A stretch of 64,000 nucleotides of DNA from Micromonospora sp. WMMD1128 (GTDB lineage: Bacteria > Actinomycetota > Actinomycetes > Mycobacteriales > Micromonosporaceae), in contig NZ_CP114902.1 in assembly GCF_027497235.1 (NCBI RefSeq), forward strand, positions 3,237,501 to 3,301,500, read 5' to 3'. Positions 20,962 to 22,217 of the stretch are shown here, piece after piece. Every line of letters begins with the position of its first letter. Within the stretch, counting starts at the first letter, position 1. The position numbers and the translations under genes are program-made. The notes under the pieces were generated by a model. The model ran no database searches. It was not told the DNA's origin and saw only the letters and a program-made list of their open reading frames with translations.

Positions 20962-21801
20962 TCAGCCGCCGGGATTCTCCATCCGGCCGGACACCACGCC
21001 CTCGGCGAGCGCCGCCGTCTCGGCGTCGGTGAGCCGGTGGGTGCCCTCGGCCGTCGCGGTCATCACGACCGGGTAGATCCGCCGGGTCAGGTCGGGGCCG
21101 CCGGTGGCGGTGTCGTCGTCCGCCGCGTCGTAGAGCGCCTCGACGGCCAGCCGCGTCGCGTCCTCGACCGACAGGCCCGCCCGGAAACGCTTCTTCAGCG
21201 CCGACTTGGCGAACAACGAGCCGGAGCCGATCGCGTCGTAGCCGGTCTCCTCGTACGGGCCGCCGGTCACGTCGAAGCTGAAGATCCGGCCGGCCCGCGC
21301 CGGGTCGCTCGCCGCCAGGTCGAAGCCGGCGAACAGCGGCACCACGGCCAGGCCCTGCATGGCGGCGCCCAGGTTGCCCCGGATCATCGAGGCCAGCCGG
21401 TTGGCCTTGCCGTCGAGCGAGAGCATCGCGCCCTCGATCTTCTCGTAGTGCTCCAACTCCACCTGGAACAATCGCATCAGCTCGATGCCGATGCCCGCGG
21501 TGCCCGCGATGCCGACGAGCGAGTACGCGTCGGCCGGGTGCACCTTCTCGATGTCACGCTGGGCGATCAGGTTGCCCATGGTGGCGCGGCGGTCACCGGC
21601 CATGACCACGCCGTTCGCGGCCGAGATGGCCACGATCGTGGTCGCGTGCGGCGCCATGTCGGCGGCCATGCCCGGCGGCAGCGGCCGACGGCCGGGCAGC
21701 ATCTCGGGGGCCACCTTGCTCAGAAATGTGGTGAAGGAGGACGTCCCCGCGTTGGTGAACACATCTGGAAGACGCCCGGATGGATCAAAACCCGCTGCCA
21801 C
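20962..21801 (-). CDS. prcB: Proteasome subunit beta PrcB
   Basis: A 279-residue precursor. The propeptide runs to Ala53 and the mature enzyme begins TTIVAI, placing the nucleophile at Thr54 (the residue before it is Ala rather than the common Gly). GDRRATMGNLI and the catalytic Lys region follow; YDAIGSGSLFAKSALKKRF is near 190. Start GTG 21801 has GAGAGGA 6 bases upstream. The first 27 codons overlap, in another frame, the end of the endonuclease VII-like gene, so part of the propeptide is doubly coded. Confidence 0.96.
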   Translation of the reverse strand: MAAGFDPSGRLPDVFTNAGTSSFTTFLSKVAPEMLPGRRPLPPGMAADMAPHATTIVAISAANGVVMAGDRRATMGNLIAQRDIEKVHPADAYSLVGIAGTAGIGIELMRLFQVELEHYEKIEGAMLSLDGKANRLASMIRGNLGAAMQGLAVVPLFAGFDLAASDPARAGRIFSFDVTGGPYEETGYDAIGSGSLFAKSALKKRFRAGLSVEDATRLAVEALYDAADDDTATGGPDLTRRIYPVVMTATAEGTHRLTDAETAALAEGVVSGRMENPGG

Positions 21802-22217
21802 GTGGTTCCTCTCAGGTACGTGATCGCCCCGGCCAGGTTGTCGAGGTCATCCTTGAACTGGCCGAGACCACCGTTGCAGTTGAAGCAGAGTATCCCGCGC
21901 ACCCATCCGGTGCGATGATCGTGGTCCAGGTGTTCCGGATCGGGGCGCCGGCAGATCGCGCACACGCCGCCCTGCTCGGCCAGGAGCTCCTGGAACTCCT
22001 TCTCACCGACCCCGTACCGGCGCCGCAGGTGATACTCGCGATCACCGCCGTAGAGCCGTTGCTTGGATTCCGTGGTCCGCTTGTTGTGGCAAGGCTTGCA
22101 GTAGCTGCCGCGGCCGGTGGGACGCTTGCTGCTTGCACAAAAATCTTCGAGCGGCTTGCATTCCCCGCAGTCGCGGCAACGGCGTCGGCCGTCCTGATCA
22201 TCCAGCGGGAGCGCCAT
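21720..22217 (-). CDS. HNH (recombination endonuclease VII-like) protein between pup and prcB
   Basis: A 165-residue protein with a beta-beta-alpha-metal nuclease centre: HLDHDH at residues 96-101, framed by zinc pairs Cys86/Cys89 (GVCAIC) and Cys111/Cys114 (LCFNCNGGLG), as in phage T4 endonuclease VII. An extra N-terminal zinc cluster is Cys14-x2-Cys17-x2-Cys20 with Cys40/Cys43. I recall the same gene between pup and prcB in Streptomyces; its role is unknown. By eye the gene is clearly lower in GC than its neighbours, and its leader (22218-22238) is A/T-rich with no good ribosome binding site. Its last 82 bp overlap prcB. Confidence 0.85.
   Translation of the reverse strand: MALPLDDQDGRRRCRDCGECKPLEDFCASSKRPTGRGSYCKPCHNKRTTESKQRLYGGDREYHLRRRYGVGEKEFQELLAEQGGVCAICRRPDPEHLDHDHRTGWVRGILCFNCNGGLGQFKDDLDNLAGAITYLRGTTWQRVLIHPGVFQMCSPTRGRPPSPHF

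Follow-up and report, generated by a model that had tools for sequence, protein, structure and literature searches.

Homing and restriction enzymes with the endonuclease VII (EndoVII) motif form a clade in which the motif is mostly C-terminal, unlike in the majority of resolvases, according to the available part of PMC6083498. The same part describes homing endonucleases of the F-CphI (DHHRN) kind as having a CX2C-DHxH-R-CX2C-N motif near the C-terminus and a free-standing gene beside a conserved gene, features shared by the gene reported here; F-CphI differs in belonging to a cyanophage and in working with an intron in psbA. Hpy99I-like restriction genes, again in that part, mostly have an adjacent methylase. 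In phage T4, free-standing homing nucleases commonly target the adjoining gene and bring about co-conversion, and some have promoters inside the preceding gene, at its 3′ end, as stated in the available part of PMC2988022. SegA, SegG and MobE, as treated there, resemble our gene in being intergenic, and several target the adjoining gene with co-conversion and marker exclusion; they are unlike it in being GIY-YIG or classical HNH enzymes whose cut sites lie hundreds of base pairs or more away.

The gene described here differs from that of F-CphI in lying in a cellular proteasome operon, in encoding zinc modules and in following a gene whose end is rewritten. A literature search returned no paper on a nuclease gene inside an actinobacterial proteasome operon.

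An EndoVII-motif gene between pup and prcB

The gene was found in a 64,000-nucleotide stretch of the Micromonospora sp. WMMD1128 genome, the whole of which we call the window, and is read from 22217 to 21720 from an ATG start. Features of the locus, with their basis in parentheses, are as follows.

20962..21801, minus strand: prcB, proteasome beta subunit, downstream neighbor (profile match)
21720..21801, minus strand: 82-bp overlap of the nuclease 3′ end with the prcB start (ORF coordinates, dN/dS)
21720..22217, minus strand: EndoVII-motif (DHHRN-type) endonuclease gene, 165 aa (ORF listing; Pfam, PHROG and PDB matches)
21810..22031, minus strand: Endonuclease_7 domain, residues 63-136 (Pfam match)
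21915..21926, minus strand: DHDH active-site core, residues 98-101 (alignment of relatives)
22089..22178, minus strand: N-terminal zinc module C14/C17...C40/C43, apparent fusion of two modules (alignment, AlphaFold model)
22218..22238, minus strand: 21-bp spacer from the pup stop to the nuclease start (sequence)
22239..22445, minus strand: pup, 68 aa from an internal ATG, the presumed start (ORF list, Pfam)
22242..22289, minus strand: last 16 pup codons, synonymously rewritten and AT-rich; proposed target and self-immunity segment (GC3, pS/pN)

Profile matches agreed with the first-pass annotation, which had placed an endonuclease VII-like gene between pup and prcB. The 165-aa protein matched Pfam PF02945 (Endonuclease_7; 81.8 bits, E 3.4e-23), PHROG endonuclease VII families (best E 2.1e-38), T4 EndoVII (1e7d, E 4.1e-7) and Hpy99I (3fc3, E 1.3e-6), and at E 0.001 the gene was the sole PF02945 match in its genome. 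Upstream, Pup matched PF05639 over 22239-22547 (E 1.9e-29), the longer pup-frame ORF listed, and downstream, PrcB matched TIGR03690 over 20962-21801 (E 7.1e-108). The same neighborhood holds a WYL/WCX-domain regulator (13307-14746, minus strand), which by its domains we take to be PafB/PafC-like.

The HLDHDH core and the cysteine pairs 86/89 and 111/114 are as that annotation described them, and an alignment of the HNH center, set beforehand, indicated that the catalytic residues are conserved: the nuclease-domain cysteine pairs, D98, H99, H101, R107 and N115 were invariant in 11 relatives of several families. The whole motif (CX2C, D-H-x-H, R, CX2C, N), which places the protein among the DHHRN/EndoVII-motif endonucleases, was also invariant or nearly so in 31 close relatives. 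The catalytic Arg and Asn were kept in 152 of 152 distinct intact copies, a count in which only these two residues were scored independently, as D/H/H belonged to the selection motif. The motif is C-terminal (residues 63-136 of 165, or 126-199 of 228), as in most of the F-CphI clade. In T4 endonuclease VII (1e7d, 1en7) it is N-terminal, and instead of matching at full length, the two proteins aligned best over query residues 73-124 and T4 residues 10-71.

The extra N-terminal zinc cluster reported earlier is present (C14/C17/C40/C43), with the qualification that it looks like an in-frame fusion of two modules. Close relatives listed were mostly 222-228 aa long, and the full-length ones that were read have two N-terminal zinc modules. 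Among the relatives compared, those closest by prcB have nucleases of 225-228 aa, and in the other 165-aa copies (L265, L266) prcB is just 89-91% identical to the window's; since the short copies are not nearest by prcB, shortening to 165 aa seems, from these comparisons, to have happened more than once. AlphaFold models (mean pLDDT 82, and 81 for the 165-aa form) placed zinc hairpins first, then a helix and then the nuclease domain, and matched PDB structures that include Hpy99I, the best, and T4 EndoVII, with modest Z scores.

The resemblance to Hpy99I, together with a PADLOC match to REase_II (E 4e-8), raises the main functional rival to a homing endonuclease, a diversifying defense nuclease. 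This would be a restriction or anti-phage enzyme resembling Hpy99I, its zinc modules engaged in an arms race with phages and the pup end carried along. The N-terminal recognition half is highly variable while the catalytic half is conserved, and both N-terminal types were seen by eye, in the alignment, in Micromonospora and in other genera, in line with such a race. Unlike most Hpy99I-like genes, however, the gene has no adjacent DNA methylase: it is flanked directly by pup and prcB, and a scan of eight further window neighbors turned up just one methylase, the tRNA methylase TrmI. Moreover, defense leaves unexplained both the rewriting of pup chiefly in genomes that have the gene and the change in a phage gene, considered below. 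We regard a defense role as rather improbable.

Distribution, decay and the prcB overlap

A placement search, set beforehand, indicated that the position between pup and prcB is widely common. In a sample of the class, PF02945 matched in 67 of 296 genomes and prcB in 237 of 296. The best 30 loci had both flanks in 26 cases, one flank at a contig end in three and neither in one, and the best 80 named loci of at least 534 relatives lay between pup and prcB in 80 of 80 cases, spanning Micromonospora and Actinoplanes relatives to Geodermatophilus, Streptacidiphilus and an Acidimicrobiia MAG. A second genus (g23), which we take to be Streptomyces, had some PF02945 match in 102 of 121 genomes and the operon flanks in 27 of 29 new loci fetched. 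Seven loci from other classes of the phylum (L091, L093, L094, L096, L097, L100 and L101) have a tandem pair of EndoVII matches after pup, standing before prcB where the contig extends that far. Three genomes of one genus (L020, L025 and L028) have two EndoVII domains in a single frame between pup and prcB.

Within the family, the gene is often decayed. Among 200 sampled Micromonosporaceae, prcB was found in all 200 and a PF02945 match somewhere in 121, and the pup-prcB interval was read in 148: 50 held an intact copy, 8 an N-truncated copy, 36 a broken copy and 19 a remnant, a soft class based on 35- to 60-bit matches, and 35 held none. "Intact" here means a frame of at least 155 aa in which the catalytic motif and one or more zinc motifs are present. 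In Micromonospora, the 38 intervals comprised 23 intact, 5 N-truncated and 10 broken copies. Presence and absence at one intergenic site among relatives is the distribution expected of a free-standing homing endonuclease. Because 63 of the 148 intervals are decayed and 35 are empty, the proteasome system does not need the nuclease. We conclude that the gene is dispensable.

Decay bears on how the gene is maintained. The suggestion that its retention reflects selection holds as far as the common placement and conserved residues go, and is weakened for a benefit to the host because of those 63 decayed copies. It also bears on a role in host DNA repair, in which a Holliday-junction resolvase or damage enzyme would be co-regulated with the proteasome and PafBC. 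The common operon place, the conserved catalytic residues and the low dN/dS of the nuclease domain (0.19; 0.16-0.21 across intact copies) are consistent with such a role, but the motif is C-terminal, unlike in most of the resolvase clade, the recognition half is highly variable, and the gene is broken, remnant or absent in 90 of 148 family intervals and N-truncated in 8. A repair enzyme is thus a very improbable reading.

Empty intervals retain a trace. The word TGTCCG, usual near the gene start, persists after pup in 12 of the family's 35 empty intervals. Of 39 genomes from other families that lack an intact copy, 0 have it there, and its presence in the empty intervals therefore suggests loss rather than primary absence in Micromonosporaceae. 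Among the 50 intact family intervals, 46 have CGGACA or TGTCCG close to the pup stop. The longer word, CGGACAT or ATGTCCG, stands at the nuclease start (22216-22222 in the window, and in relatives), in opposite orientations by eye in the two N-terminal types, A and B. An inverted repeat resembling CCTTCG...CGAAGG directly follows the pup stop in several g23 genomes (L002-L005 and L008).

In the 82-bp overlap, dN/dS was 0.10 in the prcB frame versus 1.69 in the nuclease frame (39 Micromonospora), and purifying selection there acts on the prcB frame. The overlap is 49 bp in the genus taken for Streptomyces, and many decayed copies retain the overlapping end. One explanation is that the gene is a neutral relic, kept for the prcB start that its 3′ end carries, its protein now functionless. 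Against a relic, intact copies have invariant catalytic residues and the low dN/dS given above, and with decay so frequent, 23 whole copies among 38 Micromonospora would hardly be expected of a gene free of constraint; we consider a relic very improbable. As a practical caution, deletions beside pup may take out a nuclease that overlaps the prcB start.

The rewritten pup 3′ end and the zinc-module cassette

Synonymous divergence was compared among 39 Micromonospora with intact two-module copies and the 82-bp overlap, taken from the best 80 named loci (52 of 80 passed; loci up to L311, with L320 left out). The last 16 pup codons had a pS of 0.78 and a pN of 0.016, the latter mainly from the last eight, where terminal Gln and Glu alternate, while codons -48 to -17 had a pS of 0.22. 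In windowed analysis, where pup is covered as far as column 64 of 66 (counts on exact codons were made separately), windows in dop, upstream pup, prcB and prcA had a dS of 0.13-0.48. The excess runs on into the zinc half of the nuclease (dS 1.3-1.9) and falls to 0.11 in the catalytic core, and no excess was found at the 3′ ends of dop or prcB. The pattern recurs in the genus taken for Streptomyces, where 36 intact copies had a dS of 2.2-3.1 in the last 20 pup codons versus 0.60-0.75 upstream, 1.3-1.9 in the zinc half, 0.5-0.6 at the core end and 0.33-0.64 in prcB.

The rewritten segment is also poor in GC. At 0.46, the GC3 of the last 13 codons of pup in the window's genome is lower than at 314 of 314 gene 3′ ends examined, including the 96 with a close downstream gene, none of which is as low. 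Across the 148 Micromonosporaceae, this GC3 climbs with nuclease decay (Spearman 0.56, p 1e-13), and in Micromonospora it is 0.51 with intact copies (n=23) versus 0.62 with decayed ones (n=15; p 0.008). In other families, genomes with intact copies had a GC3 delta of -0.20 (n=12), versus a mean of -0.03 in those without the nuclease (n=38; p 7e-5), which on average lack a dip, genomes whose prcB begins right at the pup stop included. The exceptions are L014, L018 and L024, which lack the dip among 13 intact copies of other families, and three of the 38 nuclease-less genomes (L390, L392 and L395), at about -0.2. Nuclease-less Micromonosporaceae have a residual dip, to a GC3 of 0.68, at pup codons -6 to -4.

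An AT-rich segment just upstream of the nuclease start, fading when the gene decays, could instead be a cis element that expresses the nuclease (a promoter, a leader or a slow-codon coupling), in which case it would say nothing about a target. T4 offers a precedent in promoters within an upstream gene's 3′ end (PMC2988022, available part), and a few nuclease-bearing genomes are without the dip. A cis element sits poorly, however, with a segment that is saturated with change rather than conserved, with the absence of comparable GC3 at any of the 96 close junctions sampled in the window's genome, with dop and prcB 3′ ends free of excess dS, and with the change of a phage gene 13 described below. 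Moreover, the left edge of the rewriting lies at about codon -18 in both types A and B, despite differing median distances to the gene start (21 and -4 nt; the choice of start is ours). On balance, a cis element is an unlikely explanation.

The pup end tracks the zinc modules. Its divergence followed zinc type beyond that of host genes (partial Mantel r 0.44 for Zn2 and 0.24 for Zn1, p 0.0005), a correlation that was repeated on exact codons, and was uncorrelated with the nuclease domain in the same test (r -0.01 and -0.03); the first half of that domain tracks host genes (r 0.38-0.43). Three cassette types (A1, A2 and B), assigned by our own motif rules and including one copy that has lost a Cys (L278), require 16 changes on the host tree versus a shuffled mean of 18.8, with 53 of 500 shuffles at 16 or fewer, and thus appear to be spread almost at random over it. 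In seven discordant sister pairs, picked by hand, whose two species differ in type, mismatch rose from 0-12% in upstream pup to 13-27% in the last 16 codons, was 19-73% in the zinc part and then 0-22%, changing sharply within pup and where the nuclease domain begins. The window's locus is likewise a mosaic: against L023, upstream pup, the last 107 nuclease codons and prcB each show 5% mismatch, whereas the last 16 pup codons show 15% and the aligned zinc part 43%.

The correspondence between cassette type and pup end is less than strict. The pup-end pS was 0.62 within types and 0.86 between them, and one of three same-type pairs shown, L268/L271, had 17% mismatch at the pup end. Zinc-part dS was below host dS in just 2 of 741 Micromonospora pairs, so that recent transfer went undetected in this species sample; old allelic lineages under balancing selection would fit equally well. 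The last Pup residue differed by type (Gln/Glu counts of 12/0 in A1, 3/11 in A2 and 8/5 in B; L268-L311, Micromonospora), with a Fisher p of 5e-5 for A1 versus A2. Whether Pup ends in Gln or Glu is described as species dependent in the available part of PMC3511204; the Micromonospora counts suggest that the trait may hitchhike on the cassette.

A phage parallel and the case for homing

Gene 13.5 of phage phiYeO3-12 was among the closest phage relatives of the nuclease (tblastn, 41-44% identity in the first 19 matches listed). Like the pup-locus gene, it lies between two conserved genes, is absent from most near relatives listed and follows a gene with a changed 3′ end; it is unlike it in length (129 aa, from coordinates), in its phage genome and in its neighbor. 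Megablast of the phiYeO3-12 stretch returned 107 records, and of the 60 listed, 9 matched the whole query, 46 only the flanks, as two pieces with the gene missing between them, and 5 matched partially. We chose five of the 9 and six of the 46 for comparison. Over its final three 30-nt bins, gene 13 differed from that of phiSG-JL2 by 10-30% in five T3-like phages with gene 13.5 and by 0-5% in five relatives without it; single upstream bins differed by 0-20% in the gene-bearing phages (0-3% in phiYeO3-12) and by up to 20% in T3, which lacks the gene. Unlike at pup, only part of the change is silent, and in 13.5-bearing phages the stop of gene 13 comes 2-5 codons later. We conclude that a related nuclease at another locus again accompanies a changed end of the preceding gene.

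Given its C-terminal EndoVII motif and the habit of T4 free-standing nucleases of targeting their neighbors, we think it probable that the pup-locus gene encodes a homing-type endonuclease of the F-CphI (DHHRN) kind, free-standing and aimed at the pup 3′ end, of which it would keep an immune, rewritten copy. We infer that the N-terminal zinc modules read DNA and that the nuclease would cut the sequence for the invariant Pup C-terminus in chromosomes or incoming DNA with a different codon version; the gene would spread as the break is repaired from the copy that bears it. Protection of the resident copy would come from the synonymously rewritten pup end traveling with it, and zinc modules and pup end may form one specificity and immunity cassette, exchanged between strains by recombination within conserved pup and the conserved nuclease domain. 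Death of the nuclease would lift the constraint, and pup would drift back toward host codons.

Homing is favored because of the pup-end dS excess in two genera, the correlation within the cassette and its discordance with the host tree, and because GC3 rises with decay, nuclease-less genomes on average have no dip and phage gene 13 offers a parallel. Counting against it, the pup end is diverged even within a type, the dip has exceptions, and recent transfer was not caught; the AT richness of the pup end could reflect a promoter or leader serving the nuclease; and the pup end adjoins the zinc modules, so linkage alone yields part of the correlation. Furthermore, the phage change is just partly silent, with a later end of gene 13, and persistence at a single locus throughout a phylum is long for an element that is selfish and nothing more. 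Among three roles raised at first pass (a nuclease controlled by proteolysis, a DNA-damage link to PafBC and a domesticated homing element), the evidence favors homing and lends no support to the other two, with "domesticated" left unsupported as the gene decays repeatedly.

If correct, homing with immunity would explain why a nuclease gene sits inside the proteasome operon of many actinobacteria, and the codon pattern directly predicts the nuclease's target and immunity. Designed cleave-and-rescue gene drives use synonymous recoding as self-protection. It is possible, if somewhat less than an even bet, that a core bacterial operon here houses a natural cleave-and-rescue system, with specificity modules and a codon-rewritten immune target joined in one cassette that has several allelic types across genera and that has shaped pup, down to the Gln or Glu at the end of Pup. 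As a natural case in which specificity and immunity are swapped jointly, it would be experimentally testable. The Gln or Glu ending of Pup, held to be a species-dependent trait, in Micromonospora goes with the cassette.
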